From Albimonas pacifica (GTDB lineage: Bacteria > Pseudomonadota > Alphaproteobacteria > Rhodobacterales > Rhodobacteraceae): a stretch of 64,000 bases of DNA. Positions 17,608 through 32,662 of this stretch are shown here, in pieces. How positions within the stretch are numbered: the stretch's first letter is position 1; each line of letters begins with the position of its first letter. Under the pieces are notes generated by a model that saw only the letters and a list, made by a program, of their open reading frames with translations, did no database searches and was not told where the DNA came from. Location: the NCBI RefSeq assembly GCF_900113695.1, contig NZ_FOQH01000010.1:186001-250000 (forward strand). Reading direction: 5' to 3'. The translations under genes and the position numbers were made by a program.

Positions 17608-17926
17608 GGGGCGCCTGGGGCGGGCCTCGCGAGGCGGGGCTCGCTCGGCCATGCGCGCGCCTTGCGCGCGGCGGGCGGGCGCCCGCGGGGGCCGCTTCTG
17701 GACTCACCCGAGAACAGGGCCGCGCCTGTCCTCCGGATCCGTCCGTCGCTGACGATGCCTGAGCGACTCGCCCGCCCCGGTCAAGGACAAGCCCGGCTGC
17801 GCCGGGTCGCTTCGCGATCCTTGACCGGAGCGGGCGAGCCGCTCTTACGGCATCAGCGACGGACGGCTCCGGAGAACAGGCGCTCCCGGCAGGGCTCGGG
17901 GCCGGCCGGGGGCGCCTGGGGCGGGC
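17608..17926. repeat. 19-bp direct repeats flanking palindrome copy 1
   Basis: The same 19-bp sequence (GGGGGCGCCTGGGGCGGGC) is present at 17608-17626 and 17908-17926, exactly 300 bp apart in the same orientation, with the long nested palindrome between them. It may be a duplication made on insertion or part of the element ends. Confidence 0.65.
17699..17905. repeat. Long nested palindromic repeat, family A, copy 1
   Basis: The core is 17723-17882. From outside to inside, the arms pair as CGCCTGT.../...ACAGGCG, GTCCGTCGCTGA / TCAGCGACGGAC, GAGCGACTCGCCCG / CGGGCGAGCCGCTC, and GGTCAAGGA / TCCTTGACC. The apical hairpin is CCCGG / CCGGG (17792-17806). Related copies are at 23683-23990 and 32085-32390. 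It lies between convergent rpsD and exoD. No open reading frame of its own. Confidence 0.9.
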
Positions 17927-17936
17927 GTCGGGAGGG

Positions 17937-18563
17937 TCAGACGCCGCCGGAGGCGAGCAGGATCACGGGGGTCGCGAAGACGGCGGCCATCACGATGAAG
18001 GCGAGGCTCGCGAACAGGCCGTCGCGGGCGACGATCGAGATCGCCAGCAGCGCCACGGCGCCGCCGAGGAAGGAGGAGGTGAAGGGCACCAGTTCCAGGA
18101 CCGGCATCGCCAGGCCGCAGAGCAGGCACAGCGCCAGAAGCAGCCGGTCGAAGGGCGGGTTCACCAGGCCGGGGAGGCGGCGGCGGGTGCGCCGCTCGAT
18201 CCAGCCGACGGGGCGGCGGAGCCAGTCGACCGCCTCGGAGAGGCGCCTGCCCTCGATCCGTCGGCGGGTGACGAAGCCGGGCAGCCACACGTGGCTGCGC
18301 CCCAGCAGCCCCGCCAGGCTGATCAGCGCGATGGTCAGCCCGCAGATCGACGACAGCAGCGGCACCCCCGAGAGCGGCGTGACCACCACCAGCGCCGGGA
18401 CCAGCAGCAGGGTCACGGTGGAGTGCTGGCCCACGGCGTCGATCACCTCGCCGGCGGAGGGCTTCTCCTGCCGGGCGGTCTCCTCGATGCGGTCGAGGAC
18501 GGTCGAGATCGGGCCGGACTCCGGGCCCTGCGGGGCGGAATCGGCGGCGGCGGCGTGGGTCAT
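17937..18563 (-). CDS. exoD: ExoD-like exopolysaccharide synthesis protein
   Basis: A 208-residue integral membrane protein of the ExoD family, first linked to exopolysaccharide production and alkali tolerance in rhizobia; the biochemical role is not established. Visible features are a cytoplasmic N-terminus and hydrophobic segments at about 48-85, 138-160 and 165-205. The family-like SICGLTIALISLAGLLGRSHVWLPGFVTRRRI and LERRT-type loop (IERRTRRRLPGLVNPPFDRL) are present. The ATG has CGGAGA upstream. Its 3' end faces rpsD across the family A palindrome. Confidence 0.85.
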   Translation of the reverse strand: MTHAAAADSAPQGPESGPISTVLDRIEETARQEKPSAGEVIDAVGQHSTVTLLLVPALVVVTPLSGVPLLSSICGLTIALISLAGLLGRSHVWLPGFVTRRRIEGRRLSEAVDWLRRPVGWIERRTRRRLPGLVNPPFDRLLLALCLLCGLAMPVLELVPFTSSFLGGAVALLAISIVARDGLFASLAFIVMAAVFATPVILLASGGV

Positions 18564-18791
18564 CGGGGTCTCCGGTCGAGGTCTCCGGGTGCGATCTCCG
18601 GATCTGGGGCGCTCGCAGCAGAGGTCGTGCCTCCGCAAGGCGTTTCAAGGGCGCCCAAGGGGCATGCCCGGGGCGCCGGCGGCCGGCCGACGCCGGCCGG
18701 GCAAGCCTGCGCGGGCCGGGGAGCCGGCCGCTGCGCGGCCGGTGTCGACCTGCGGTCGGGGGGCGGCTCGGCGGGCGGCTGGGCGGGCGGC

Positions 18792-19619
18792 TCAGCGGGC
18801 GGGGCGCAGGAAATCCGGGGGGTTGAAGACGTCGCAGAAGGCGTCGGGGCCGAGCGGCCGGGCCTCGAAGAACGCGTCGGGACGGGCGCGGGAGAGGGCC
18901 GCGTCGGTCATCCCGATCAGCGCCTCGGCGCAGTCGAAGCCCCAGGCGAGGAGGACGCCCGGGTCGGGGAGGTGCAGGCGGTCGACCGGGCGCCCCTGCT
19001 CCCGCCCGTCGGGGAGGCGTCGGGTCAGACGCAGGGCCGGGGCGCCGGGCCGGAGGGCCGAGACGGGGATGGAGGTCGAGACCTCGTCGAACTCGCTGAT
19101 CGCGAGGACCTCGTGGGCGCCGAGCGCCTCCAGGAAGCGGCCGATTGCGGGCTCGCCGGCAGGGGGCAGGCGGCCGTCGGTCGGCAGGAACCAGCGCTCG
19201 GCCTGCATCCACGCCTCGAGGCGGTGCTGGAGGGCGAGGAGTTCGGGGCCGCGGGCGGGCGCGTGGCCCTGGATCGCCAGCAGCCAGGCGGCGCGGTCGG
19301 AGAGCTCGGGCGGGGCCTCCGGCGCGGCCCGCGCGCGGGCTTCGGGCCAGGAGAGGGTGTGGGCGGAGGCCTTGGCGCGGGCCTCGAAGGCCTCGTGGAC
19401 CTCGTCGGGGTCGTCGATGCCGTCGGGGTGGTCGACGGGGGCGAACGACCAGGCCCCTTCGCCGAAGGCGCCGGGCAGGGGCAGGCGGTAGAACGGATTC
19501 GGCGCGACGAAGGCGTGGGGGTAGATGCTGGCCCACCAGGTCAGGACCGGGACGTCGACCGGGGGGGCCTGGCGGGCGCGCTCGGGCCTCGGGATTTCCG
19601 ACACGTTCATGCACGCCAT
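18792..19619 (-). CDS. Conserved-looking protein of unknown function
   Basis: 275 residues, soluble and acidic, with no signal peptide or membrane span. Notable segments are VPVLTWWASIYPHAFVAPNPFYRLPLP near the N-terminus, ISEFDEVSTSIPVSAL in the middle and VLLAWGFDCAEALIGMTDAALSRARPDAFFEA near the C-terminus; the aromatic-rich ends suggest a folded domain. I do not recognise a family. Two ATGs (19619 and 19610) are possible and neither has a good ribosome-binding site. The 3' end falls within a tandem GGCGGGCGGCT repeat (about 18760-18802). It is divergent from the DapC-like gene, so the two share a short promoter region. Confidence 0.7.
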   Translation of the reverse strand: MACMNVSEIPRPERARQAPPVDVPVLTWWASIYPHAFVAPNPFYRLPLPGAFGEGAWSFAPVDHPDGIDDPDEVHEAFEARAKASAHTLSWPEARARAAPEAPPELSDRAAWLLAIQGHAPARGPELLALQHRLEAWMQAERWFLPTDGRLPPAGEPAIGRFLEALGAHEVLAISEFDEVSTSIPVSALRPGAPALRLTRRLPDGREQGRPVDRLHLPDPGVLLAWGFDCAEALIGMTDAALSRARPDAFFEARPLGPDAFCDVFNPPDFLRPAR

Positions 19620-19711
19620 CCAAAACTGGACGCATCCCCCTGCGCAAGGTATCTTTTCCCCGAACGAGGGCCGCGCCAAATGACGGCCCCGTCGGAATGA
19701 GGCCAGGCAAG

Positions 19712-20923
19712 ATGCAGCAGCCCGAGCGATTCTCGGACCTGCCGGAGTACGCGTTTCCGCGGCTCCGCGCCCTGTTGGAGGGGACCCCCGCCGGCGGTCC
19801 CCTGCTTCCCATGTCGCTGGGCGAACCGCGCCATCCGCTGCCGCCCTTCCTGGGCGAGGAGCTTGCGCGCCACCACGACCTCTACGGACGATACCCCCCG
19901 AACGAGGGCTATCCGGAGCTGCGCGAGGCGATCGCGGGCTGGCTGCAAAGCCGCTTCGGGATCGCCGGGGACCGCGCGGACCCCGAGCGGCACGTGTTCC
20001 CGCTGAACGGCACGCGCGAGGGGCTGTTCGCGGCCTGCCTGGCGCTGGTGCCCGAGCGCAAGAACGGCCAGCGCCCGGCGGTGCTGATCCCCAACCCGTT
20101 CTACCAGTGCTACGCCGTCGCCGCGCTCGCGGCCGGGGCCGAGCCGATCTACGTGCCCGCGACGCCGGAAAGCGGCTTCCTGCCCGACTTCGAGAGCCTG
20201 CCCGAGGACCTGCTGGCGCGCACCGCGGCGGTCTACCTGTGCTCGCCCGCCAACCCGCAGGGGGTGGTGGCGGGGATGGAGCGGTGGAAGGGGCTGATCG
20301 CGCTCGCCGAACAGCACGACTTCTTCGTCTTCGCCGACGAATGCTATTCCGAGATCTGGCGCGACGCGCCCCCGCCCTCGGCCTTGCAGGCCAGCCAGGA
20401 GATGGGCGCCGACCCCGAGCGGGTTCTGGCGTTCCACTCGCTGTCCAAGCGCTCGAACCTGCCGGGTCTGCGCTCGGGCTTCTGCGCGGGCGGTCCGAAG
20501 GCCATCGCGGCCATGAGAAAACTGCGGGCCTATACCGGGGCGCCGCTGCCGGGGCCGATCCAGATGGCCTCGGCCGCCGTGTGGCGGGACGAGGCGCATG
20601 TGGACGCCTCCCGCGCGCTCTACCACGAGAAGTTCGCCATGGCGGACCGGATCCTGGGGAACATGGAGGGCTACCGCCCGCCCGAGGCGGGGTTCTTCCT
20701 GTGGCTCGACGTCTCCGCGAAGTGGGGGGACGGCGAGGCCGCGACCCTGCACCTGTGGAAGGAGACCGGGGTGCGGGTGTTGCCGGGGGCCTATCTCTCG
20801 CGCCCCTCGCCCGACTGGCTGGGCGGCGGCGATCCGGGCGAGGCCTATGTGCGCATCGCCCTGGTGGAATCCGTGGAGGACGTCGAGCGGGGGCTGACCC
20901 TGATCCGCGAGGCGCTGGGCTGA
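19712..20923 (+). CDS. dapC: Class I/II aminotransferase, probable succinyldiaminopimelate aminotransferase
   Basis: A 403-residue PLP-dependent fold-type I aminotransferase resembling DapC, which makes N-succinyl-LL-diaminopimelate in lysine and peptidoglycan synthesis. Visible features: LGEPRHPLPPFL, YPPNEGYPELREAIAGWL, the NGTREGLF substrate loop, the IPNPFYQCYAVAALAAGAEP block, SPANPQG, ADECYSEIW (PLP-pyridine aspartate and tyrosine), the Schiff-base lysine in SLSKRSNLPGLRSGF, and the carboxylate-binding Arg in YVRIALV. ATG 19712 is preferred over 19697, as the N-terminus MQQPERFSDLPEYAFPRL fits the family. Exact substrate is inferred from family resemblance. Confidence 0.8.
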   Translation: MQQPERFSDLPEYAFPRLRALLEGTPAGGPLLPMSLGEPRHPLPPFLGEELARHHDLYGRYPPNEGYPELREAIAGWLQSRFGIAGDRADPERHVFPLNGTREGLFAACLALVPERKNGQRPAVLIPNPFYQCYAVAALAAGAEPIYVPATPESGFLPDFESLPEDLLARTAAVYLCSPANPQGVVAGMERWKGLIALAEQHDFFVFADECYSEIWRDAPPPSALQASQEMGADPERVLAFHSLSKRSNLPGLRSGFCAGGPKAIAAMRKLRAYTGAPLPGPIQMASAAVWRDEAHVDASRALYHEKFAMADRILGNMEGYRPPEAGFFLWLDVSAKWGDGEAATLHLWKETGVRVLPGAYLSRPSPDWLGGGDPGEAYVRIALVESVEDVERGLTLIREALG

Positions 20924-21002
20924 GACCGGCCGGCGCGCCGCCCGCCCCATGACGGGGCCGGCCCGGGCGCGCGGCTGCAACGACAGGATGACAGGCACAC
21001 AG

Positions 21003-23660
21003 ATGGCGTTCTTCTCCCGCTCCGACCTCGACGACGACTTCGGCGGCCGCGACGCCTTCCTGCCGGAAAGCTGGTCCGAGGCCATCGGCCGCCGCTTCAT
21101 GGAGGGCGCGGGCCTGGCCCTGTGCCTGCTGGCGGTCGTCGCCGCGATGATGCTGGCGAGCTACGATCCCAACGACCCCAGCTTCTTCAACGCCTCGGAC
21201 GGGGCGCCGTCGAACTGGCTGGGGCTGCCGGGGGCCTACCTGGCCGACCCGCTGATGCGCACGCTGGGGCTGGCGGCCTGGTCGCTGGTGCTGCTGCCCG
21301 GCGTCTGGGGCTGGCGGCTGGTGACCCATGAGGGCGAGTGGCGGGCCTGGTCGCGCCTGCTGGTGGCGCCCTTCGCGATCCTGGCCGCGGCCGCGTGCCT
21401 CTCGGCCCACGTGCCGCCGGAGGCCTGGCCGCATCCCTACGGGCTGGGCGGGCTGATCGGCGACGGCGCCGACCGCACGCTGGTCGCCTACATGCCCTGG
21501 GGGCTGGAGATCGCGCTGCCGATGCTCTCGGTCGGGCTGTTGGCCGCGACCCTGGCGCTGGGGGGGCTCGCGCTGGGCATGGACACGGCCGAGGCCGCCG
21601 AGCTGGTGCGCTGGCTGGCCTCGGGCCTGGGCTGGGCGATGCGCACGGCGCTGGGTCTGCTGGGCCTCGCCGCCGGCGGCGCCGCGCGGCGCATGGCGCG
21701 CCCGCGCTCGGCCCGCGTGGCCCCGCCCGAGCCCTATGGCGCGGCGCGGCGGGAGCCGGCCGGATCCTTCGACGAGGAGGAGGAAGAGGAGGAGGACGAG
21801 CCGCCCCTCACCTCGCGCCGCCGCACGCCGAAGCTGGGCTCGGCGCTCGACGACGAGCCTCCCGCGCGGGAGCCGAGCGTGCTGGACCGCATCCGCTCGG
21901 CCGCCAGGCGCATCGAGCCCGGCCCGATGACCCGCCGCGAGCCGGAGCCGGAGGCGGACGAGGTCCTCTACGACGATCGCGACGACTATGACGACTACGA
22001 GCCCGCGCCCGTCCCCCGCGCCATGGCGCCGGCGCCGATCCCGCAGCCGCGGGCGGAGGTCGCCGCGCCGGTGAAGAAGGTCCCGGTCAGCCGCCGGGCC
22101 GAGGCCGAGGCGCAGCCGAAGTTCGAGTTCGACGACCTCTCCGAGGACGCGGCCTGGTCCTGCCCGCCGCTGTCGCTCTTGCAGAGCCCGCGCGAGATCT
22201 CCCGCCCCCAGCACTCGACCGAGGCGCTGGAGGAGAACGCGCGGATGCTCGAGGCGGTGCTGGACGACTACGGCATCCGCGGGGAGATCGTGAAGGTCTC
22301 GCCCGGGCCGGTCGTGACGATGTACGAGCTGGAGCCGGCGCCGGGCCTGAAGGCGAGCCGCGTGATCGGCCTGGCCGACGACATCGCGCGGTCGATGTCG
22401 GCGCTGGCGGCGCGCGTGTCCACGGTTCCGGGCCGCTCGATCATCGGCATCGAGCTGCCCAACGAGGTGCGCGAGAAGGTGCTGCTCCGCGAGCTGTTCG
22501 CGGCCAAGTCCTTCGGGGATGCCAAGGAGAAGCTGCTGATCGCGCTGGGCAAGGACATCGCCGGGGCGCCGATGGTGGCGAACCTGGCGCGGATGCCGCA
22601 CCTGCTGATCGCGGGCACCACCGGCTCGGGCAAGTCGGTGGCGATCAACGTGATGATCCTGTCGCTGCTCTACCGGCTGTCGCCGAAGGAGTGCCGGATG
22701 ATCATGATCGACCCCAAGATGCTGGAGCTGTCGGTCTACGACGGCATCCCGCATCTGCTGAGCCCGGTGGTGACGGACCCCAAGAAGGCGGTGGTCGCGC
22801 TGAAGTGGACGGTCGCCGAGATGGAGGACCGTTACCGCAAGATGTCGCGCATGGGCGTGCGCAACATCGAGGGCTACAACCAGCGCGTCCGCGACGCCCA
22901 GTCCCGCGGCGAGGCCTTCACGCGGTCCGTGCAGACCGGCTTCGACCCCGACACCGGCGAGCCGATCATCGAGACCCAGGAGTTCGAGCCCGAGGAGCTG
23001 CCCTTCATCGTCGTCGTGGTCGACGAGATGGCCGACCTGATGATGGTCGCGGGCAAGGAGATCGAGGCCTGCATCCAGCGCCTGGCGCAGATGGCCCGCG
23101 CCTCGGGCATCCACCTGATCATGGCGACGCAGCGCCCCTCGGTCGACGTCATCACCGGCACGATCAAGGCGAACTTCCCCACCCGGATCTCGTTCCAGGT
23201 GACCTCGAAGATCGACAGCCGCACCATCCTGGGCGAGCAGGGCGCCGAGCAGCTGCTGGGCATGGGCGACATGCTCTACATGGCCGGCGGCGGTCGGGTG
23301 ACGCGCGTGCACGGGCCCTTCGTCTCCGACGAGGAGGTCGAGGAGGTGGTGATGCACCTCAAGTCCCAGGGCGAGCCGGAATACCTCAGCGGCGTCACCG
23401 ACGGCCCCGACGAGGAGAACGCGGCCGACATCGACGCGGTGCTGGGGCTGGGCTCGGGCGACGACTCCGAGGCCGACCTCTACGACCGCGCGGTGGCGAT
23501 CGTGGCGCGGGACCGCAAGTGCTCGACCTCCTACATCCAGCGCAAGCTCGCCATCGGCTACCAGCGGGCGGCACGGCTCGTGGAGCAGATGGAGGAGCAG
23601 GGCGTGGTGACGCCGGCCAACAAGGTCGGCAAGCGGGAGATCCTGGTGGGCGAGGTCTGA
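21003..23660 (+). CDS. ftsK: DNA translocase FtsK
   Basis: A septum-located DNA pump that moves chromosome termini and activates XerCD at dif. The 885 residues comprise an N-terminal membrane domain with about four hydrophobic spans (to about residue 220). A linker follows, rich in acidic residues, proline and arginine (about 255-375). The motor (about 400-800) has Walker A GTTGSGKS at about 538 and Walker B VVVVDEMADLM at about 670, and the C-terminal gamma winged helix carries TSYIQRKLAIGYQRAARLVEQMEEQGVV. In-frame starts at 20949 and 20988 are also possible; 21003 gives the most natural N-terminus. It ends just before palindrome copy 2. Confidence 0.95.
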   Translation: MAFFSRSDLDDDFGGRDAFLPESWSEAIGRRFMEGAGLALCLLAVVAAMMLASYDPNDPSFFNASDGAPSNWLGLPGAYLADPLMRTLGLAAWSLVLLPGVWGWRLVTHEGEWRAWSRLLVAPFAILAAAACLSAHVPPEAWPHPYGLGGLIGDGADRTLVAYMPWGLEIALPMLSVGLLAATLALGGLALGMDTAEAAELVRWLASGLGWAMRTALGLLGLAAGGAARRMARPRSARVAPPEPYGAARREPAGSFDEEEEEEEDEPPLTSRRRTPKLGSALDDEPPAREPSVLDRIRSAARRIEPGPMTRREPEPEADEVLYDDRDDYDDYEPAPVPRAMAPAPIPQPRAEVAAPVKKVPVSRRAEAEAQPKFEFDDLSEDAAWSCPPLSLLQSPREISRPQHSTEALEENARMLEAVLDDYGIRGEIVKVSPGPVVTMYELEPAPGLKASRVIGLADDIARSMSALAARVSTVPGRSIIGIELPNEVREKVLLRELFAAKSFGDAKEKLLIALGKDIAGAPMVANLARMPHLLIAGTTGSGKSVAINVMILSLLYRLSPKECRMIMIDPKMLELSVYDGIPHLLSPVVTDPKKAVVALKWTVAEMEDRYRKMSRMGVRNIEGYNQRVRDAQSRGEAFTRSVQTGFDPDTGEPIIETQEFEPEELPFIVVVVDEMADLMMVAGKEIEACIQRLAQMARASGIHLIMATQRPSVDVITGTIKANFPTRISFQVTSKIDSRTILGEQGAEQLLGMGDMLYMAGGGRVTRVHGPFVSDEEVEEVVMHLKSQGEPEYLSGVTDGPDEENAADIDAVLGLGSGDDSEADLYDRAVAIVARDRKCSTSYIQRKLAIGYQRAARLVEQMEEQGVVTPANKVGKREILVGEV

Positions 23661-23682
23661 CGCCTCCGGCGAGGACCGGACT

Positions 23683-23990
23683 ACAGGCGCCCTGCGGGCG
23701 GGCCTGGCTGCGGCGCGCCGGTGGGAAGGCCAGGGCCGGATCGTGACGGGTCGGGAGCCTGCGGCGGGCTCCTGACTCACCAAAGAACAAGGCGCGCGCC
23801 TGCTCTCCGGAGCCGTCCATCGCTTCTGGCCTGCCTGAGCGACTCGCCCCCGCCGGTCAAGGACAAGCCCCCTTCGGGGGTCGCTGCGCGATCCTTGACC
23901 GGAGGGGGCGAGTCGCTCCGTTGGCCGCCAGCGACGGACGGCTCCGGAGAACAGGCGCTCCCGGCAGGGCCTGGGGCGAGGGGCGCCTGC
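23683..23990. repeat. Long nested palindromic repeat, family A, copy 2
   Basis: The outermost arms CAGGCGCCC (23684-23692) and GGGCGCCTG (23981-23989) enclose the core 23797-23955. The core has the same order of nested arms as copy 1, including GAGCGACTCGCCCC / GGGGCGAGTCGCTC and GGTCAAGGA / TCCTTGACC, and an apical hairpin CCCCC-TTC-GGGGG (23868-23880). It sits between convergent ftsK and dctM. The sequence differs from copies 1 and 3 mostly in paired positions. Confidence 0.9.
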
Positions 23991-24013
23991 GGCGGGCGGT
24001 CGGCGGAGATGAG

Positions 24014-24046
24014 AAAGGGCGCGACGGGGGGACCGTCGCGCCCTTT
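24014..24046. terminator. Bidirectional terminator between ftsK and dctM
   Basis: A perfect 14-bp stem, AAAGGGCGCGACGG (24014-24027) with CCGTCGCGCCCTTT (24033-24046), and a 5-nt loop. It lies 20 bp past the dctM stop and ends the dctPQM transcript; the T-run side also serves the plus strand. Confidence 0.85.
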
Positions 24047-24065
24047 CGCTTTCGTCCGCGTCGGC

Positions 24066-25445
24066 TCAGCGGGTGATCAGCTCCGGGCCCATGAAGTAGG
24101 TGGGCAGGAAGGTGCTCATGCCCGGGATGTAGGTGACCATGATCAGGAAGATGAAGAGGATGCCCAGCCAGGGCAGCGCCGCCTTCACCACGTCCCACAT
24201 CGCCATGCCCGCCACGCCCGAGGTGACGAAGAGGTTCAGGCCCACCGGCGGGGTGATCATGCCGATCTCCATGTTCACCACCATGATGATGCCGAGATGG
24301 ATCGGGTCGATCCCGAGGCTGATCGCGATGGGGAAGACCAGCGGGGCCACGATGATGATCAGGCCCGACGGCTCCATGAACTGGCCGCCGATCAGCAGGA
24401 TCAGGTTCACGATGATCAGGAACATGATCGGCCCGAAGCCCGCGTCCAGCATCGAGGTGGCGATGGCCTGGGGGATCTGCTCGTCGGTCAGAACGTGCTT
24501 GAGGATCAGCGCGTTGGCGATGATGAACAGCAGCGTCACCGTCAGCTTGCCCCCCTCGAACAGCGCGTCGCGCGTGTCGGGGTGGACCCAGACCGTCAGC
24601 GCCGTCCAGGGCTTGCGGTAGAAGGCGACCGGCGCGCCGTCCTCGGTGGTCGCCTTCAGCGGGCCCATGTCGCGGTAGATGAAGTTCGCGATCAGGAAGG
24701 CGTAGATCGCGGCGACGGCCGCGGCCTCGGTCGGGGTGAAGATGCCGCCGTAGATGCCGCCCAGGATGATCACGATCAGGAACAGGCCCCAGCCGGCGTC
24801 GCGGGCGGAGGCGAAGACCTCGCCCCAGCCCAGCCAGTCGCCCTTGGGCAGGTTCTGGACCCGGGCCGCGACGTAGATGCCGATCATCAGCATCAGGCCC
24901 GCCACCAGCCCCGGGATCACGCCCGCGAGGAACATGCGCCCGACCGAGACGTCGGTGGCGGCCGCGTAGACCACCATCACGATCGAGGGCGGGATCAGGA
25001 TGCCCAGCGTGCCCGCGTTGCAGATCACGCCGGCGGCGAAGCTTTTCGTGTAGCCCACCTGCTGCATGCCCGCGATGACGATGCCGCCGATGGCCACGAC
25101 CGTCGCGGGGGACGAGCCCGAAAGGGCGGCGAACAGCATGCAGGCGAAGACGCCCGCGATGGCGAGGCCGCCGCGGAACTGGCCGACGCAGGCGATGGAG
25201 AAGCGGATGATCCGGCTCGCCACGCCCCCCGTCGACATGAAGGTCGAGGCCAGCACGAAGAAGGGGATGGCGAGCAGCGTGTAGTGGCCCGCCATGGCGT
25301 TGTAGAGGGTCTGGGCGATGGAGGCGAGCGAGCTGTCCGACAGCACCAGCAGGAACAGGGTCGAGGACACGCCCAGCGCCACCGCGATCGGCACGCCGAT
25401 CAGCAGCAGGCCCACGACGACCGCGAAGAGGATGGCGACTTCCAT
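24066..25445 (-). CDS. dctM: TRAP transporter large permease
   Basis: The 459-residue DctM-type subunit, the ion-coupled membrane channel of a TRAP uptake system. It is hydrophobic throughout, with about 12 spans. Family segments include IPFFVLASTFMSTGGVASRII, LSGSSPATVVAIGG, NAGTLGILIPPSIVMVVYAAAT, GGIFTPTEAAAVAAIYAF, GQFMEPSGLIIIVAPLVFPIA and EIGMITPPVGLNLFV. It carries a hydrophilic insert of about 45 residues (about 250-295, YRDMGPLKATTEDGAPVAFYRK) that is longer than in the shortest family members. The start lies 4 bp after the dctQ stop, so translation is coupled. Confidence 0.95.
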   Translation of the reverse strand: MEVAILFAVVVGLLLIGVPIAVALGVSSTLFLLVLSDSSLASIAQTLYNAMAGHYTLLAIPFFVLASTFMSTGGVASRIIRFSIACVGQFRGGLAIAGVFACMLFAALSGSSPATVVAIGGIVIAGMQQVGYTKSFAAGVICNAGTLGILIPPSIVMVVYAAATDVSVGRMFLAGVIPGLVAGLMLMIGIYVAARVQNLPKGDWLGWGEVFASARDAGWGLFLIVIILGGIYGGIFTPTEAAAVAAIYAFLIANFIYRDMGPLKATTEDGAPVAFYRKPWTALTVWVHPDTRDALFEGGKLTVTLLFIIANALILKHVLTDEQIPQAIATSMLDAGFGPIMFLIIVNLILLIGGQFMEPSGLIIIVAPLVFPIAISLGIDPIHLGIIMVVNMEIGMITPPVGLNLFVTSGVAGMAMWDVVKAALPWLGILFIFLIMVTYIPGMSTFLPTYFMGPELITR

Positions 25446-25449
25446 GGTC

Positions 25450-26193
25450 TCAGCGCTCCGTCGGGCCGCGGCGATGCGCGGGATCGTGGTGGTGCAGCGG
25501 ATCGGCGGCGCCGGGATCGGGGATGGCGTGGTGGGAGCGGGCGTCCTCGACCGCCTCCTCGGCCTCGTGGGAGGCGATCAGGGTGGCGCGCTCGCCGGTC
25601 AGCAGCTCCCATCCCGCCTGGGCGAAGCGCAGCACCAGCAGCAGCATCGAGATCGGAAGGATGACGTAGGGCACCAGGCGGGGCAGCTTCTCGTAGGCCT
25701 CGCCCTCGTTGAACCACTCGGCGAAGAGCGGGTTGAGGAAGGCGGGCATGGGCACGTCGTTGAGCTCGTACCAGCCCTGGCCGCGGGCGGAGGCGAAGCC
25801 GGTGGGGAACCAGCGGCCGGTGGTCGGCTGCATCTCGCCGTAGGGGGCCCAGAAGTCCCAGGCGCCCTTCAGCAGCAGCAGCGCGAAGGCCAGGCAGATC
25901 GCGGCCGAGATCAGCGACAGCGTGCGGCGCACCGGCGGCGAGACGATGTTGATCACCGCGTCCACGCCCAGGTGGGCGGTGACCTTCACGCAGTAGCTGG
26001 CGCCCAGCAGCACCAGCCAGGCGAACAGGAACGACGTGGTCTCGAGCGCCCACAGGATGTTGGAGTTGAAGACGTATCGCGCGACCACGTTGGCGAAGGT
26101 GATCAGCGTCATGGCGCCCAGGATCGCGGCGATCAGCGTCTCTTCGACGGCGTTGATCGCGCGGCCTGCGGGCGTGCGGGCCTTGTAGTGCAT
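25450..26193 (-). CDS. dctQ: TRAP transporter small permease, long form
   Basis: The 247-residue DctQ-type subunit, longer than the usual 160-200 residues. It has four hydrophobic segments (about 18-38, 45-68, 85-110 and 175-200). Between the third and fourth is an extra loop of about 60 residues (FWAPYGEMQPTTGRWFPTGFASARGQGWYELNDVPMPAF), and there is a His/Asp/Glu-rich C-terminal tail (about 215-247). Family-like residues include ANVVARYVFNSNILWALETTSFLFAWLVLLGASYCVK. GGGGGAGG precedes the ATG. It is separated from dctP by 209 bp containing a hairpin. Confidence 0.92.
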   Translation of the reverse strand: MHYKARTPAGRAINAVEETLIAAILGAMTLITFANVVARYVFNSNILWALETTSFLFAWLVLLGASYCVKVTAHLGVDAVINIVSPPVRRTLSLISAAICLAFALLLLKGAWDFWAPYGEMQPTTGRWFPTGFASARGQGWYELNDVPMPAFLNPLFAEWFNEGEAYEKLPRLVPYVILPISMLLLVLRFAQAGWELLTGERATLIASHEAEEAVEDARSHHAIPDPGAADPLHHHDPAHRRGPTER

Positions 26194-26310
26194 GGGGCCT
26201 CCCCCCCTTGGGAGCGGCGGCGCGCGAGGCCTTGAGGCCGCGCGACCGGCCGCCGGAGCCGGAGCGAGCCGGGGCCGCCTCCTCCCAGAGGGTCCCGGCG
26301 CCGGACGGCG

Positions 26311-26341
26311 CCGCCCCGACCGGGCGGGCCGGTCGGGGCGG
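26311..26341 (-). terminator. Intercistronic hairpin between dctP and dctQ
   Basis: A 13-bp perfect stem (26311-26323 with 26329-26341; arms CCGCCCCGACCGG / CCGGTCGGGGCGG) with a 5-nt loop. By position it may stabilise the dctP message or reduce read-through into dctQM, so that binding protein is made in excess. No T-run follows. Confidence 0.5.
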
Positions 26342-26402
26342 GCGATGGATGCGGACGGGTTCGCCCCCGGGCCGCGCAGGGCGGCCGGGGGCGTCCGGTC
26401 TC

Positions 26403-27404
26403 TTACATGGACGCATTGATCTTCTGGGCGGCCTCGATGTTCTCGGCCCCCACGTCGCCCTCGAACTCGGCCCACACGGGCTTCATCGCGTCGACCCAGG
26501 CGGCGCGCTGCTCTTCGGTGAGCTGGCGGACCTCGCCGCCGGCGTCGATGATCGACTGCTTGGCTTCCTCGTTGACCTGGAAGCTGTCGCCGTTGCGGTC
26601 GGCCGTCACCTCGTCGAGGATGGTCAGGAACTGCTCGCGCACGTCGGCGTCGAGCCCTTCCAGCCAGTCGACCGAGGTCACCACCAGGTAGTCGATGACG
26701 CCGTGGTTGGTCTCGGTGGTGCCGTCCTGCACCTCGAAGAACTTCTGGCCGTAGATGTTGGACCAGGTGTTCTCCTGCCCGTCGACGACGCCGGTCTGCA
26801 GGGCGCCGTAGACCTCGGAGAAGGCCATCGCCTGGGGGTTGGCCTCGAGGGCGGCGAACTGCGCCTTGAGCACCTCGGAGGGCTGAACGCGGAACTTCAG
26901 CCCCTTGGCGTCGGAGGGCAGCAGCAGCGGCTTGTTGGCCGAGATCTGCTTCATGCCGTTGTGCCAGTAGGCGAGCCCCTGCAGGCCGCGCCGCTGCATC
27001 GAGTCGAGCAGGCCCTGCCCGGTCTCGGAGGCCTGGAAGGCGTCCACCGCGTCGATGTTCTTGAACATGAACGGCAGGTCGAAGATCCGGAACTTCTTGG
27101 TGAAGGTCTCGAACTTCGACAGCGACGGCGCGGCGAGCTGGACGTCGCCGTTCAGCATCGCCTCGAGCACCTGGTCGTCGTTGTAGAGCGACGAGTTGCC
27201 GTAGACCTCCATGCAGGCCTTGCCGTTCATCTCCTCGTTGACCCGCGACTGCAGGAGCGAGGCGGCGATGCCCTTGGGGTGCTTGTCGGTGTTGGTGACG
27301 TGGCTGAACTTGATGACCATCTCGCCCGCGTCGCACGCGGCGTGAGCGGCGGTCGTCATCATCAGCGCCGCCGCGGCGGTCGCGGCGATCTTGAGAAAGC
27401 GCAT
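26403..27404 (-). CDS. dctP: TRAP transporter periplasmic substrate-binding protein
   Basis: A 333-residue DctP-family solute-binding protein. The signal peptide (about 1-22) ends AHAACD. The mature part begins VIKFSHVTNTDKHPKG and contains LNGDVQLAAPSLSKF, FDLPFMFKNIDAVDAF, WHNGMKQISANK, the carboxylate-binding Arg in LKFRVQPSEV (about residue 165-175), MAFSEVYGALQTGVVDGQENTWSNIY and TNHGVIDYLVVTS. These features place it near C4-dicarboxylate binders (DctP/DctB subgroup), so malate, succinate or fumarate are likely substrates by family resemblance. GGGAGG precedes the ATG. It is the first gene of dctPQM. Confidence 0.93.
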   Translation of the reverse strand: MRFLKIAATAAAALMMTTAAHAACDAGEMVIKFSHVTNTDKHPKGIAASLLQSRVNEEMNGKACMEVYGNSSLYNDDQVLEAMLNGDVQLAAPSLSKFETFTKKFRIFDLPFMFKNIDAVDAFQASETGQGLLDSMQRRGLQGLAYWHNGMKQISANKPLLLPSDAKGLKFRVQPSEVLKAQFAALEANPQAMAFSEVYGALQTGVVDGQENTWSNIYGQKFFEVQDGTTETNHGVIDYLVVTSVDWLEGLDADVREQFLTILDEVTADRNGDSFQVNEEAKQSIIDAGGEVRQLTEEQRAAWVDAMKPVWAEFEGDVGAENIEAAQKINASM

Positions 27405-27719
27405 GTCCTACCTCCCTGTTGGTTCCCGAATGCGCAAGGGACCTGACCGCAGCCTAGGCGGCGGCTGGTGCGGCGTAAATGACGTTTCGGAGACGAAATC
27501 AACCGGCGATCGCCGCGGATCGCAGTAAATTGCTCCCCGTTCCGCAGGGCGATGCGACCGGTCCGCATTCGGCGCCGGTCGGCGGAGGCGGCGGCAAGAT
27601 CCTTGCCGCAGGGGGGAGGAGGGCGACCGTTCCTGTCCGCCGCGGTGCAGCACGCGCAGCGGGGGCCGGAAGGCCCGCCGCGCGGCCGGGAAGGGGGGCG
27701 GGGCGGCGTCGAGCGCGGC
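27405..27719. promoter_or_regulatory. dctP upstream region with palindrome
   Basis: This 315-bp region holds the dctPQM promoter. A palindrome TTTCG-GAGA-CGAAA (27485-27498) lies 81-94 bp upstream of the dctP start in the only AT-richer part and is a candidate operator. No two-component regulator genes (DctBD/DctSR) are adjacent. Confidence 0.35.
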
Positions 27720-28499
27720 TCAGGCCGCCGCGCCCTCGCCGTGGCAGCGCCGCGCGTGCCAGATCTGGAGCGCGTCGGCGGTGACGTGGAAGAACGGCCC
27801 CGCGTCGCCCGACAGCACCTCGAAGGGCGTGTGCGGCTCGCCGAGGCTGGAGACCACCAGCATCGCGCCCGAGAAATCCTCGTCGCGGGTGTAGAGGCCG
27901 GGGGCGGCCAGCACCTCGAGCCCGGCGCCGCTGGCCGAGGCGACGCCGCGGGCGCTGTCCTCGATGGCGACGGCGGCCTCGGGCGGGACGCCCAGGCGCT
28001 GCAGGGTCAGGCGGTAGGGGGCGGGATCGGGCTTCGAGGTCTCGACGTCCTCGCGGGTGACGACGACCGCGAACCAGTCCAGCGCCTCGAAGCCGAAGGC
28101 GTTGAGGATCAGCGCCTCGAACGTCTCGCGCGACGAGGTGGTGCAGGCGGCGAGCTTCACCCCCGACGAGCGCAGGTCCTCCAGCAGACGGGCGACGCCG
28201 GGGCGCAGGGCGGCGCCTTCCTCGATCATCGAGACGAACAGGGCCTGCTTGCGCTCATGGATGCGCTCGAAGTCGCCGGCGTGCTCCATGGTGGTCAGGT
28301 CGCGGGGGCGGTGCGCCTCGGCGTAGTGGCGCATGCGGGCGAGGCCGCCTTCCACCGCCAGCAGCTCATGATAGCGCTCGCGGTCCCAGGACCAGTCGAG
28401 GCCGGCCTCGGCGAAGGCGGCGTTGAAGGCGGCGCGGTGGAGTTCCTCGGTCTCGGCGAGGGTTCCGTCGACGTCGAAGATCACGGCCTTGAGGGTCAT
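27720..28499 (-). CDS. HAD-IA hydrolase, CbbY-like sugar-phosphate phosphatase
   Basis: 259 residues with all HAD motifs: DVDGT (residues 9-13, nucleophile and acid aspartates), CTTSS (motif II, about 118-122), the lysine in SKPDPAPY (about 160-167) and IEDSARG (motif IV). The cap domain has the CbbY-type TEELHRAAFNAAFAEAGLDWSWDRERY segment. CbbY of Rhodobacter degrades the RuBisCO inhibitor xylulose 1,5-bisphosphate, but relatives act on other sugar phosphates and no cbb genes are nearby, so the substrate stays open. The ATG has AAGGA upstream at slightly long spacing. It is divergent from pntA. Confidence 0.85.
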   Translation of the reverse strand: MTLKAVIFDVDGTLAETEELHRAAFNAAFAEAGLDWSWDRERYHELLAVEGGLARMRHYAEAHRPRDLTTMEHAGDFERIHERKQALFVSMIEEGAALRPGVARLLEDLRSSGVKLAACTTSSRETFEALILNAFGFEALDWFAVVVTREDVETSKPDPAPYRLTLQRLGVPPEAAVAIEDSARGVASASGAGLEVLAAPGLYTRDEDFSGAMLVVSSLGEPHTPFEVLSGDAGPFFHVTADALQIWHARRCHGEGAAA

Positions 28500-28853
28500 G
28501 ACGGCAAATCCTTCGATTGGGCGGACGCCGCGGGGCTTGCGCCGGCCGCATCCCGCGTGGGGGACAGGACGCGGTACGCTGGCGGCCGCTGGCTCGGGCG
28601 GGTCCGGTCGGATCGTTGCGCGGGCATGGCACGATGCCCGCGGTTCGCGACAGGTCGATGACGGGAGGGCGTTCGGTAAGGAATGCGAACTTAGCGCCCA
28701 ATTTCCGCCATGATACCCCCCGGAAACGGGCGCGTCGACTCCTTCGCATCTCGACAGCGACGCCCCTTGATGCGAATCCGACGCGAGCGGTTGCGGAAAC
28801 GGGCGGACGAATCCGCCGGTTTCCGCAGCGGCGCTGCGCCGCGGCGAACGGCC

Positions 28854-28870
28854 GCGCAATAATATTGCGC
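28854..28870. promoter_or_regulatory. Perfect 17-bp AT-centred palindrome
   Basis: GCGCAATA-A-TATTGCGC is a perfect inverted repeat of 8+1+8 in the 500-bp region between the CbbY-like gene (minus) and pntA (plus), 131 bp before the pntA start. Its AT-rich centre in GC-rich DNA suggests a dimeric regulator site. The rest of 28500-28930 shows no gene; one more hairpin lies at about 28618-28642. Confidence 0.5.
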
Positions 28871-28930
28871 AAGTGGGGGTCTGGACGTCTTGCCTGTTTC
28901 GCACGTCTAGGCCAAACCGACGGTGGACAA

Positions 28931-28969
28931 AGCGGCGCCCGGAAGGTCTGTTCCCTTCCGGGCGCCGCT
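28931..28969 (+). promoter_or_regulatory. Leader hairpin just upstream of pntA
   Basis: A perfect 16-bp stem, AGCGGCGCCCGGAAGG (28931-28946) with CCTTCCGGGCGCCGCT (28954-28969), and a 7-nt loop, sits 5-12 bp before the pntA ribosome-binding region. No plus-strand gene lies upstream, so it is not a read-through terminator; a role in mRNA stability or translation control is likely. Confidence 0.6.
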
Positions 28970-29000
28970 GCGTCCGGAGGAGAACATGGAGGAGGGACGC

Positions 29001-30572
29001 ATGAGGATCGGCGCCCCAGCTGAGATCTTCGAGGGCGAAAAGAGGGTCGCCCTCACGCCAGAAAGCGCGAAGCGCCTGCAGAAGCTGGGCTACGAGTGCC
29101 TGGTGCAGAGCGGCGCCGGCGAAGCCGCGAGCTTCAAGGACGAGGCCTATGCCGAGGCCGGCGTCACGGTGGTCGAGACCGCCGCGGACCTGTGGAGCCA
29201 GGCCGACGTCATCGTCAAGGTGCGGGCCCCGTCGGACGAGGAGATCGCCGCCGCGCCCGAGGGCAAGACGCTGATCTCGTTCATCTGGCCGGCCCAGAAC
29301 GAAGAGATGCTCGCGGCCCTGAACGCCAAGCGGATGACCGTCCTGGCGATGGACATGGTGCCCCGCATCAGCCGCGCGCAGAAGATGGACGCGCTGTCGT
29401 CGATGGCCAACATCGGCGGCTACCGCGCGGTGGTCGAGGCGGCGAACAACTTCGGCCGCTTCTTCACCGGCCAGGTGACCGCCGCGGGCAAGGTGCCGCC
29501 GGCGAAGATCCTGGTGGTGGGCGCGGGCGTCGCGGGTCTCGCGGCCATCGGCGCCGCCCAGGCGATGGGCGCCGTGGTGCGCGCCTTCGACGTGCGCCCC
29601 GAGGTGGCCGAGCAGATCGAGTCCATGGGCGCCGAGTTCCTGTTCCTCGACTTCGAGGACAGCCAGGACGGCGCCGGCACGGGCGGCTACGCGGCCCCCT
29701 CCAGCCCTGAGTTCCGCGAGAAGCAGCTCGAGCTGTTCCGCGCCCAGGCCCCCGAGGTCGACATCGTCATCACGACGGCGCTGATCCCCGGCCGGCCCGC
29801 GCCGAAGCTGTGGACCGAGGACATGGTCCTCGCGATGAAGAACGGCTCGGTCATCGTCGACCTCGCCGCCGAGCGCGGCGGCAACTGCGACCTGACCGTG
29901 CCCGACGACAAGATCGTCACCGAGAACGGCGTCACCATCATCGGCTACACCGACCTGCCGAGCCGGATGGCGACCCAGTCGTCGAACCTCTACGGCACCA
30001 ACATCGCCCACATGATGTCCGACCTGACGCCCGAGAAGGACGGCAAGCCGGTCGTGAACATGGACGACGACGTGATCCGCGGCTCGACCGTGTGTCACCA
30101 GGGCGAGATCACCTTCCCGCCGCCGCCCCCCAAGGTGAAGGCGATCGCGGCTGCGAAGCCGAAGGAGAAGGTGAAGGAGCCGACCCCCGAGGAGAAGAAG
30201 GCCGCCGAGCTCGCCGCCTTCAAGAAGCAGACCCGCAGCCAGGTCACGCTGCTGGCCGTGGGCGCGGCGCTGCTGCTGGGCGTGGGCCTGGTCGCTCCGG
30301 CCAGCTTTATGCAGCACTTCATCGTCTTCGTGCTGTCGGTCTTCGTCGGCTTCCAGGTGATCTGGGGCGTGGCGCATTCGCTGCACACGCCGCTGATGGC
30401 GGTGACCAACGCCATCTCCTCGATCATCATCCTGGGCGCGCTGATGCAGATCGGCTCGGGCTCGTGGATCGTGATCGTGCTCGCCGCGCTGTCGGTGTTC
30501 ATGGCCGGCATCAACATCTTCGGCGGCTTCCTCGTCACCCGGCGCATGCTCGCCATGTTCCAGAAATCGTAA
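29001..30572 (+). CDS. pntA: NAD(P) transhydrogenase subunit alpha
   Basis: The 523-residue PntA of the proton-translocating transhydrogenase, which uses proton flow to make NADPH from NADH. Residues 1-380 form domain I (NAD(H)-binding): [43 protein letters not shown]-like [20 protein letters not shown] and the Rossmann [34 protein letters not shown] Lys/Pro/Glu-rich linker (about 385-405) leads into membrane domain II with four spans (about 412-510). ATG 29001 (GGAGG 8 nt upstream) matches the family start; ATG 28986 is an alternative. It forms an operon with pntB, 13 bp apart. Confidence 0.97.
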
Positions 30573-30585
30573 GGAGGGCGAGGGC

Positions 30586-32019
30586 ATGGACTACGGATTC
30601 TCGACCGCGGCCTATGTGGTCGCGGCGGTTCTCTTCATCCTGTCGCTGGGCGGCCTGTCGAACCAGGAGAAGGCCAAGCGCGCGGTCTGGTACGGCATCG
30701 CCGGCATGGCGCTGGCCGTCGCCGCCACGCTGGTGGGCCCCGGCTCGGGCCTGTGGCTGCTGTCGGTGATCCTGATCGCGGCCGGCGGCATCATCGGCTT
30801 CTTCGTCGCCAAGCGCGTGCAGATGACCGAGATGCCCCAGCTGGTCGCGGCGATGCACTCGCTGGTGGGTCTGGCCGCGGTCTTCGTGGGCTACAACGCC
30901 CATGTCGAGCTGGGCCGGGTCATGGCCATGGACGACGCGGCGCGCGTGGGGCTGGAGGGCTTCGCGGCCCTGCTCGCCAAGAAGGACGCGGTGGAGATCG
31001 CGATCCTGCGCGTCGAGCTGTTCCTGGGCGTGTTCATCGGCGCGATCACCTTCACCGGCTCGGTCATCGCCTACGGCAAGCTGGCGGGGAAGGTCACCTC
31101 GGCCGCGAAGAAGCTGCCGGGCGGGCATGTGCTGAACGCCTCGGCGGCCGCGATCTCGGTGCTGTCGCTGATCTGGTACTTCAACTCCGGCGGGCTGGCG
31201 CCCCTGCTGATCATGACGATCTGCGCGCTGTTCATCGGCTACCACCTGATCATGGGCATCGGCGGCGCCGACATGCCGGTGGTCGTGTCGATGCTCAACT
31301 CCTACTCGGGGTGGGCGGCGGCGGCGATCGGCTTCAGCCTCGGCAACGACCTGCTGATCGTGGTCGGCGCGCTGGTCGGTTCTTCCGGTGCGATCCTGAG
31401 CTACATCATGTGCAAGGCGATGAACCGGCACTTCGTCTCGGTGATCCTGGGCGGCTTCGGCGGGACCTCGGGCCCGGCGATGGAGGTCGAGGGCGAGATG
31501 GTCGCCATCGACGCCGACGGCGTGGCCGCGGCGCTGGAGGAGGCGGACTCGATCATCGTGGTGCCGGGCTACGGCATGGCGGTGGCGCAGGCGCAGCAGT
31601 CGGTCTCGGAGCTGACCCGCAAGATGCGCGCGGCGGGCAAGGAGTTCCGCTTCGCCATCCACCCCGTCGCGGGGCGTCTGCCGGGGCACATGAACGTGCT
31701 GCTGGCCGAGGCCAAGGTCCCCTACGACATCGTCCTGGAGATGGACGAGATCAACGAGGACTTCCCCGAGACGGACGTGGTGATCATCATCGGGGCGAAC
31801 GACATCGTGAACCCCGCGGCGCAGGACGACCCGAACTCCCCCATCGCCGGCATGCCGGTGCTGGAGGTGTGGAAGGCCAAGCAGGTGTTCGTGTCCAAGC
31901 GCGGGCAGGGCACCGGCTACTCGGGCATCGAGAACCCGCTGTTCTTCAAGGACAACACGCGGATGTTCTACGGCGACGCCAAGGCCTCGATCGACGCGCT
32001 GCTGTCGAAGCTGGGCTGA
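30586..32019 (+). CDS. pntB: NAD(P) transhydrogenase subunit beta
   Basis: The 477-residue PntB. Membrane domain II residues (about 1-270) show [51 protein letters not shown] (the His of the proton path is in AMHSLVG) and [22 protein letters not shown]. The NADP(H)-binding domain III (about 290-477) shows [38 protein letters not shown] and [25 protein letters not shown], ending with [25 protein letters not shown] precedes the ATG. The transcript ends at a strong hairpin at 32044-32075. Confidence 0.98.
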
Positions 32020-32043
32020 GGCCTCGAACGATCTGAGAACGGG

Positions 32044-32075
32044 ACGGGCCGCGCATCGGTGGATGCGCGGCCCGT
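32044..32075 (+). terminator. Intrinsic terminator of pntAB
   Basis: A 14-bp perfect stem, ACGGGCCGCGCATC (32044-32057) with GATGCGCGGCCCGT (32062-32075), and a GGTG loop, followed by TCGG. It starts 25 bp after the pntB stop codon. Confidence 0.8.
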
Positions 32076-32084
32076 TCGGAGTCT

Positions 32085-32390
32085 ACAGGCGCCCTGCGGG
32101 CGGGCATGGCTGCGCTGCGCGTGTGGGAGCGTCGGGAGGAATCGGCTGATGGCGGAGCCTCCGGCGGGCTCCTGACTCACCCAAGAACAAGCCCGCGCCT
32201 GTCCTCCGGAGCCGTCCATCGCGTCTGATGCCTGAGCGACTCGCCGGGGGCGGTCAAGGACAAGCCGCGCTTCGCGCGGTCGCTGCGCGATCCTTGACCG
32301 CCCCCGGCGAGTCGCTCTGATCGGCATCCGCGATGGACGGCTCCGGAGAACAGGCGCTCCCGGCAGGGCCTGGGGCCGGCGGGCGCCCGG
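32085..32390. repeat. Long nested palindromic repeat, family A, copy 3
   Basis: The core is 32196-32356 and has the most perfect arms: GCCGTCCATCGCG / CGCGATGGACGGC, then GAGCGACTCGCCGGGGGCGG / CCGCCCCCGGCGAGTCGCTC, GTCAAGGA / TCCTTGAC, and apical CCGCGC-TTC-GCGCGG (32265-32279). The 21-bp left end (32085-32105) is identical to that of copy 2. It lies between convergent pntB and the DUF3253 gene. Confidence 0.92.
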
Positions 32391-32407: not shown

Positions 32408-32662
32408 TCAGTGCAGGGGGCGCGAGAGGCGGATCGGACCCTTGGCGGAGAGGGCGTCGACCGCCTTGCCCGACTGGGTGACCGAGATCAGCCCGTCGCG
32501 CTGCAGGCGACTCGCCACCATGCGCACGCGGTCGAGCAGGGGGCGCCAGTCGTCGGGGTTCAGCGCACGCGCGGCGTCGGAAGGGCAGAAGCTGGAATCG
32601 GCGTCGCGGCTGCGGGCCAGGTCGAGCAATGTCTCGGCGATTCGGTCGTCTGTCGTATTCAT
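32408..32662 (-). CDS. DUF3253 family small protein
   Basis: An 84-residue protein matching the DUF3253 pattern as I know it: an N-terminal ETLLDLARSRDADSSFCPSDAARAL, then DWRPLLDRVRMVASRLQRDGLISVTQSGKAVDALSAKGPIRL. The order of helices, with QRDGLISVTQSGK as a wing, suggests a winged-helix fold that may bind DNA. GGGAGG precedes the ATG by 10 nt. It is monocistronic and lies next to palindrome copy 3. Function unknown. Confidence 0.8.
   Translation of the reverse strand: MNTTDDRIAETLLDLARSRDADSSFCPSDAARALNPDDWRPLLDRVRMVASRLQRDGLISVTQSGKAVDALSAKGPIRLSRPLH

Follow-up and report, generated by a model that had tools for sequence, protein, structure and literature searches.

Three giant hairpins lie within a 64,000-nt stretch of the Albimonas pacifica genome (contig NZ_FOQH01000010.1, positions 186,001 to 250,000 of the forward strand), which we refer to as “the window.” All three are on the + strand, and each sits where the end of a plus-strand gene meets the end of a minus-strand gene: rpsD/ExoD, ftsK/DctM, and pntB/DUF3253. 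Their positions and these junctions were correctly recognized in an earlier reading of the sequence (the original prediction), which took the hairpins for a three-copy family. The family is far larger, with 147 places across the genome identified by a covariance model. Here, we describe this family, its variation within and between species, and the processes that may maintain it. We consider it probable that it is a dispersed, non-coding palindromic repeat family that multiplies and renews itself within the genome at the DNA level. As to its affinities, it is best read as a new, structure-conserved family of palindromic repeats of a REPIN/ERIC-like kind, with relatives of its tip across the Rhodobacterales. 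The features of the three window copies and their neighbors are as follows (positions are those of the window).

16857..17477, +: rpsD, left neighbor of copy 1
17703..17708, +: tag CTCACC on the 5′ side of copy 1 (read from the sequence)
17710..17718, +: 5′ copy of repeat R, GAGAACAGG, copy 1 (read from the sequence and from the coupling of the 5′ and 3′ R)
17723..17881, +: giant hairpin, copy 1; R′ lies in its 5′ arm, and R (17872-17880) ends its 3′ arm
17779..17791, +: upper stem and unpaired CAAG, GGTCAAGGACAAG, copy 1
17792..17817, +: two tip hairpins of copy 1, variable A (CCCGGCTGCGCCGGG) and B (TCGCTTCGCGA)
17937..18563, −: ExoD-family gene, right neighbor of copy 1
21003..23660, +: ftsK, left neighbor of copy 2
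23685..23703, +: separate floating repeat AGGCGCCCTGCGGGCGGGC, 5′ of copy 2
23754..23772, +: small 5′ hairpin GGAGCC..GGCTCC, within the copied block, copy 2
23776..23781, +: tag CTCACC, copy 2
23784..23789, +: 5′ copy of repeat R, AGAACA, copy 2
23797..23956, +: giant hairpin, copy 2 (3′ R at 23948-23953; upper stem and tip at 23855-23891)
24066..25445, −: TRAP transporter DctM gene, right neighbor of copy 2
30586..32019, +: pntB, left neighbor of copy 3
32087..32105, +: floating repeat AGGCGCCCTGCGGGCGGGC, 5′ of copy 3
32154..32172, +: small 5′ hairpin GGAGCC..GGCTCC, copy 3
32176..32181, +: tag CTCACC, copy 3
32184..32189, +: 5′ copy of repeat R, AGAACA, copy 3
32196..32355, +: giant hairpin, copy 3 (3′ R at 32347-32352; upper stem and tip at 32252-32290)
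32408..32662, −: DUF3253 gene, right neighbor of copy 3 (probable start; missed by the codon-score gene caller)

Anatomy and numbers of the repeat

A 24-mer quoted from the window copies occurs three times in the window and in none of 100 shuffles, and the folding of 236–316 nt stretches around the copies gives z-scores of −9.65 to −11.4 relative to shuffles. The unit begins with a small hairpin (GGAGCC..GGCTCC), followed by the tag CTCACC (upstream in 55 of 57 copies), the repeat R (AGAACA), a short loop, and R′, which is part of the 5′ arm. The long stem is interrupted; its middle eight pairs are freely variable, and the upper stem, GGTCAAGGA, includes an unpaired CAAG. The tip comprises a variable hairpin A and a hairpin B, after which the 3′ arm ends in R and is followed by GGCGCT. 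Among the closest pairs listed, near-identical hairpins at unlinked sites have in common the block that runs from the GGAGCC hairpin up to AACAGGCGCT, and their flanks are unrelated.

The two copies of R vary together. The base at R −2 (i.e., two before AACA) is the same in the 5′ flank and the 3′ arm in all 174 parsed copies (151 with A and 23 with G), where 134 are expected. The base one before AACA is equal on both sides in 174 copies (168 expected), and the base three before in 62 (52 expected). Only copies with AACA at both positions could be parsed, which excluded 21, and the parse is unreliable for R′; pairing of R′ with the 3′ R was seen in a covariation analysis of 45 copies.

Two other repeats occur beside the hairpins. 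Many copies have the repeat AGGCGCCCTGCGGGCGGGC upstream at variable spacing; the flanks of near-identical hairpins suggest that it lies outside the copied block. A further repeat, GGGCCTCGCGAGGCGGGGCTCGCTCGG, is found upstream of window position 17690 and of several copies in the window's genome (G000) and its sister species (G001), and is also present without the hairpin (L123 beside L184). Intergenic gaps are therefore mosaics of several repeats.

The window's genome (6.02 Mb in 68 contigs; all genomes compared are drafts) has 92 matches to the exact core pattern, and the reversed control has none. The covariance model, built from 45 copies, gives 150 matches, i.e., 147 places after removal of three reverse-strand duplicates; all 92 exact-core matches are included, and two places are weak (78 and 52 bits). 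The search scored 150 of 12369 candidates, making 147 a lower bound with further copies possible. In G001, which belongs to the same genus, there were at least 48 matches in a first search, and 40 stretches (0.8 Mb) hold 76 full copies and two fragments. The stretches taken for comparison contain 119 copies in G000 and 76 in G001. A third genome of the genus, G002, has a single weak partial match. This genome has short intergenic palindromes of its own, of the kind GGCGGGTTCGCACCCGCCCTACG (L319, L320, L323), and lacks the giant hairpins. Counting the window's own genome, the model has matches in 6 of the 61 relatives, in 6 of 295 genomes from the family, and in 2 of 289 from the class, in searches with set limits and filters that lose weak matches. 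A search of this type, in the genome and its relatives, had been proposed in the original prediction, and it finds many more copies in the former and some in the latter.

A similar tip is found more widely. A core pattern restricted to CCGC variants matches at least 91 stretches. Among the 80 such loci listed, 63 are by title from Rhodobacteraceae or from genera that we take to be Rhodobacterales (Sulfitobacter, Tateyamaria, Leisingera, Phaeobacter, and Maritimibacter among them); the other 17 include unclassified Alphaproteobacteria and probable chance matches in unrelated groups. The loci inspected have a common tip (upper stem, CAAG, and two small hairpins), a likeness for which the search pattern itself selects, and a mostly different 5′ domain. 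A second covariance model, built from 55 of these wider loci, has matches in 11 of 61 family genomes, the window's genome being counted by its tips: 41 in G017, 24 in G076, 22 in G006, and 1 to 5 in each of seven other genomes. Nine of 81 copies of the tip-sharing motif lie 21–34 nt before a gene read as betA (seven) or cobM (two), names taken from the protein starts or ends. Copies of this Roseobacter type occur at the same operon junctions in several genera, both betB-betA (L210, L250, L272, L276, L284) and before cobM (L216, L225). Four matches are in viral contigs, two in clusters that we read as gene transfer agents and two that look like chance. The two clusters (L344, L346) end exactly at a TGA within the repeat tip, in the last 50 bases, as if the last gene had borrowed its stop codon from the repeat.

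Matched arms and turnover of contents at shared sites

Matched changes in the stems, noted from the three window copies, are a property of the whole family. Among 45 copies, 98.5% of cells are paired, compared with 89.4% in shuffles, and there are 23 pairs (13.4 in shuffles) and 209 cells (63.7 in shuffles) changed on both sides; none of 500 shuffles reaches the observed value for any of the three. The weaker measure of the five calculated, the number of further pair types (34 versus 30.3), is reached by 25 of the 500 shuffles. As a sliding control, shifting the partner by one to three columns reduces pairing to 35.5–42.0%. The original prediction had concluded that covariation implies selection. 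The structure is indeed kept, but selection is only one option, since hairpin-templated repair and template switching leave the same pattern.

Across 195 copies and 61 pairs (one column pair, G-T throughout, was left out), there are 11523 Watson-Crick, 31 G-U, 144 A-C, 150 other, and 47 gapped cells. G-U thus accounts for 31 of 11848 cells with letters, and this near-absence is evidence against selection acting on a single RNA strand of the + orientation. The excess of A-C, which depends on few columns (50 of the 144 cells come from one column pair), could reflect the other strand or else a bias in mutation.

Matched changes are also seen between species. In 45 orthologous pairs from G000 and G001, 265 pair cells are changed on both sides and are still Watson-Crick, and 24 are changed on both sides otherwise. 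A further 112 are changed in one arm, including 10 switches between Watson-Crick and G-U. Among distant paralogues (distance 21–30), matched double changes make up 29672 of 43253 changed cells, but among close paralogues (distance 1–6) only 24 of 79. Errors therefore seem to be single first and matched later. Simultaneous exchange of the arms as blocks was rejected: there is only a mild excess of runs with at least three double changes (5.6% of runs versus 1.2% expected), and the closest paralogues also differ mostly otherwise than by matched double changes.

The sites of the hairpins persist between the two species. A syntenic stretch among those taken from G001 is available for 57 of the 117 G000 copies with enough flank, and at 45 of these 57 sites G001 has a copy in the same orientation, with 2 ambiguous and 10 absent; this level of sharing is inflated, because the stretches were chosen for holding copies. 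Of 322 orthologous gene pairs, 44 hold a copy in each of the two species, 8 and 5 hold one in a single species, and 265 are empty in both.

In their variable stems, copies at shared sites resemble each other no better than copies taken at random. In the two variable arms, orthologous copies have identities of 0.514 and 0.475, versus 0.500 and 0.483 for independent copies. Four-fold sites are 0.766 identical between the two species (318 of 822 genes with a usable match), and spacers without a copy 0.81–0.83 identical, versus 0.73–0.74 at random. Outside the unit, the identity of orthologous sequence climbs from the random level to 0.84–0.91 beyond ~200 nt. The nearest relative of a copy is in its own genome for 179 of 195 copies (107 of 119 in G000 and 72 of 76 in G001). 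The unlikeness of orthologues at shared sites points to concerted evolution or recopying in place.

Gene context and competing explanations

Gene context was determined for 194 copies in G000 and G001, with genes from a purpose-built codon-score caller. The context stretches were chosen around copies and some overlap, such that the counts are not genome-wide rates. The window trio had suggested that the element always lies between convergent genes; this is not the case. Only 66 copies are in convergent gaps, with 50 in ++ tandem gaps, 63 in −− tandem gaps, 15 in divergent gaps, and none within a called gene. Expressed per gene pair, convergent pairs hold a copy in 66 of 283 cases, tandem pairs in 113 of 1095, and divergent pairs in 15 of 282. 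Copies are found mostly downstream of stop codons. The neighbors look like core genes, e.g., rpsD, ftsK, pnp, and aroC.

One competing explanation of the family, possible but unlikely, is that the hairpin is a transcript-end structure, i.e., a bidirectional terminator or a shield for mRNA 3′ ends, kept in place by selection while its sequence drifts because only pairing matters. Consistent with this, copies hug gene ends (medians of 66–140 nt from the hairpin edge to a stop codon and 158–213 nt to a gene start), convergent gaps are enriched, sites are largely common to both species, and G-U is almost lacking, as expected if both strands must fold. Moreover, on the minus strand the variable tip hairpin followed by CTTGTCCTTG scores terminator-like in all three window copies (10 sites in the scan versus 4.1 in shuffles). 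However, the consensus has no T run beside either end of the long hairpin (55 and 57 flanks), and separate GC-rich palindromes, visible by eye although the terminator scan does not score them, lie at the gene end beside each window copy. Tandem copies face both ways, and the ftsK and pntB gene ends of G002 are without the element. The large bidirectional terminator suggested in the original prediction is weakened because just 66 of the 194 copies are flanked by two gene ends, and 15 are flanked by none. Selection in place also does not predict species-wise likeness, or orthologues that diverge faster than four-fold sites.

A second explanation, which we consider very unlikely, is pure concerted evolution: old, fixed repeats are homogenized by ectopic gene conversion and their arms are matched by template switching, with neither mobility nor function. 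Species-wise likeness, retained sites, and double changes in the arms would all be expected, and PMC8794818 describes how template switching can produce matched changes. However, linear conversion tracts should tie the intervening tip to both arms, whereas the tie between the two variable arms (z = 28.0 and 20.2) far exceeds that between arm and tip (z = 4.7 to 6.6); the argument would be weaker if the tip changed independently in place. There are also copies in one species only, and conversion over ~200 bp of ~85% alike sequence would need to outrun synonymous change.

Lastly, a structured RNA made from one strand (a regulatory or small RNA family) would suit the strong covariation, the breadth of the same-tip motif in Roseobacters with its copies ahead of betA- and cobM-like genes, and the A-C excess, which on the other strand reads as G-U over A-C, but it is highly improbable given the lack of an Rfam family at gathering score, the variable orientation to neighboring genes, the scarcity of G-U on the + strand, the weight of a single column pair in the A-C count, and the ~150 near-equal loci, which are many for one RNA.

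Known repeats, candidate carriers, and proposed renewal of the hairpins

The original prediction did not recognize the hairpins as a described family, and we likewise found no published description of this family in the open-licence literature. The window elements have no Rfam match at gathering score, only two sub-threshold matches to microRNA families (E 0.25 and 0.32). None of the repeats at 14 wider loci matches Rfam at gathering score either; two matches at those loci (tRNA and SorX) lie elsewhere. Plasmids and phages gave no match to the repeat, in a search from which near records may be excluded.

Several known systems have features in common with the family. The ERIC sequences, or intergenic repeat units, of enterobacteria are long, non-coding palindromes between genes or inside operons, for which mobility is inferred. 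They belong to another lineage, were compared here by description, and differ in that paired change and species-wise turnover have been measured in Albimonas. Integron attC sites keep their structure while their sequence varies and are recognized as folded single strands; the Albimonas copies, by contrast, are dispersed beside core-like genes rather than arranged in cassette arrays. The guide-bearing ends of IS200/IS605 elements (see PMC6006769) have a hairpin near the end, a short internal stretch that pairs with the flanks, and a link to the replication strand; they differ in that the tested genomes with the Albimonas hairpin type have no Y1 gene above cut-off. REPIN and REP sequences with their RAYT transposases are alike in being dispersed, intergenic, and palindromic. 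They too are numerous within a genome, flank their hairpin with a tag on one side, and form populations that differ from species to species. The pairing of REPINs with RAYTs is published (PMC8049555 and PMC3733652), and PMC3733652 defines REPs by a GTAG or CGTC tetranucleotide beside a palindrome. The Albimonas family has the many dispersed extragenic copies of a REP (147 places, 0 of 194 within called genes), but its tag is CTCACC rather than GTAG or CGTC, its hairpin is ~160 nt long with two tip hairpins and R on both sides, and none of the six genomes of this hairpin type that were tested has an above-cut-off match to PF01797 (RAYT).

Our preferred reading remains that the family multiplies and renews itself as DNA, in the manner proposed for REPINs and ERIC elements. 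It draws together the block common to unlinked places, species-wise likeness, retained sites, matched arms, and an orientation bias. Copies are oriented along the locally G-rich strand, assumed to be the leading strand, in 126 of 189 cases, and in 103 of 148 at a balanced skew >0.02 (p 2e-6); for comparison, 834 of 1716 genes are on the G-rich strand. By context, this orientation is seen in 51 of 66 convergent, 45 of 61 −− tandem, 26 of 48 ++ tandem, and 4 of 14 divergent copies. Hence, the common orientation of the window trio, which the original prediction had noted, is genome-wide a bias and not a rule.

In this self-renewal, the copied form would be a hairpin of single-stranded DNA, met more often on one replication strand. 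A putative enzyme would recognize the tag and hairpin and copy them into or over sites, and R′ may be a guide that pairs with the R of one flank or the other. Errors in one arm would later be matched by hairpin-templated repair, selection, or both. A more specific form of self-renewal, which we regard as doubtful, is that the guide-bearing hairpin re-homes on its own old sites: R′ would pair with the flanking R, and a putative non-Y1 enzyme would overwrite the existing copy with the folded strand, such that loci persist while their sequences are renewed from the current population and the arms are mended from each other.

A number of results weigh against self-renewal by copying, beginning with the search for a carrier. 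The Y1/RAYT transposase family (PF01797) has no match in G000, G001, G002, G003, G022, G241, or G279, in a search that gave matches in 6 of 14 control genomes and did not extend to G276, G284, and G423. In G020, where the hairpin type is present once, the match scores 18 bits, below the 23-bit cut-off. Among the 102 gene entries between close copies, no transposase was noticed in the first 120 residues, read without a family search. High site sharing is not predicted by transposition alone, and gene conversion without mobility would likewise give species-wise likeness. There is residual locus memory: one P1 pair has a value of 0.500 versus 0.327, and the true orthologue has a median rank of 0.30 and is the best match in 1 of 90 cases. 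Comparison of six sites that are empty in one of the species gave neither a clean boundary nor a target duplication, the spacers being too diverged. The strand bias weakens where skew is strongest (19 of 29 copies above 0.1, p 0.14), and ++ tandem and divergent copies do not show it. Of 16 other loci, only 4 have an exact R/R′/R triple of at least six letters: GAACGAAG in G022, GAAGAGG in G241, GCGATCAGG in Acuticoccus, and, at another G022 locus, ACAGGC, which resembles the Albimonas sequence; other words printed in that search are chance. Lastly, 55 of the 79 changed cells in close paralogues are not matched double changes; correction is therefore not instantaneous, and ordinary compensatory selection is possible.

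Three candidates for the source of mobility were dropped. Y1/RAYT was abandoned as the carrier for lack of an above-cut-off match in G000, G001, G020, G022, G241, and G279, the genomes of this hairpin type that were searched. The genes between close copies, some of them the same gene in both species, look from their first 120 residues like housekeeping genes (such as aroC, pnp, rpsO, and gatB) rather than a parent gene. In G017, two Y1 stretches ~138 bp from two Roseobacter-type copies, at equal spacing, had the appearance of a missing link, but both are degenerate IS200 elements inserted into the repeat at TTCAC, in its 3′ part (G017:C3:149183-149712 and G017:C8:62740-63316; L336, L337). In these two Y1-bearing copies, the only ones considered, there is no IS200/IS605 parent element with the same ends, and the Y1 remnants are not a parent. 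A non-autonomous element is nevertheless the best fit among the readings offered in the original prediction, even though its usual Y1/RAYT partner is unmatched above cut-off.

The family is unusual in having R on both flanks, a forked tip, sites that persist while their content is replaced, and no RAYT-type transposase above cut-off. It is a natural case in which sites persist and contents are replaced, in a family that lacks the transposase explaining its best-studied relatives. If a carrier is found, this could be a new way of moving folded single-stranded DNA. Even without mobility, ~150 matched hairpins in two species provide a direct test of stepwise selection against template switching as the origin of paired changes, a question usually debated on RNA genes.

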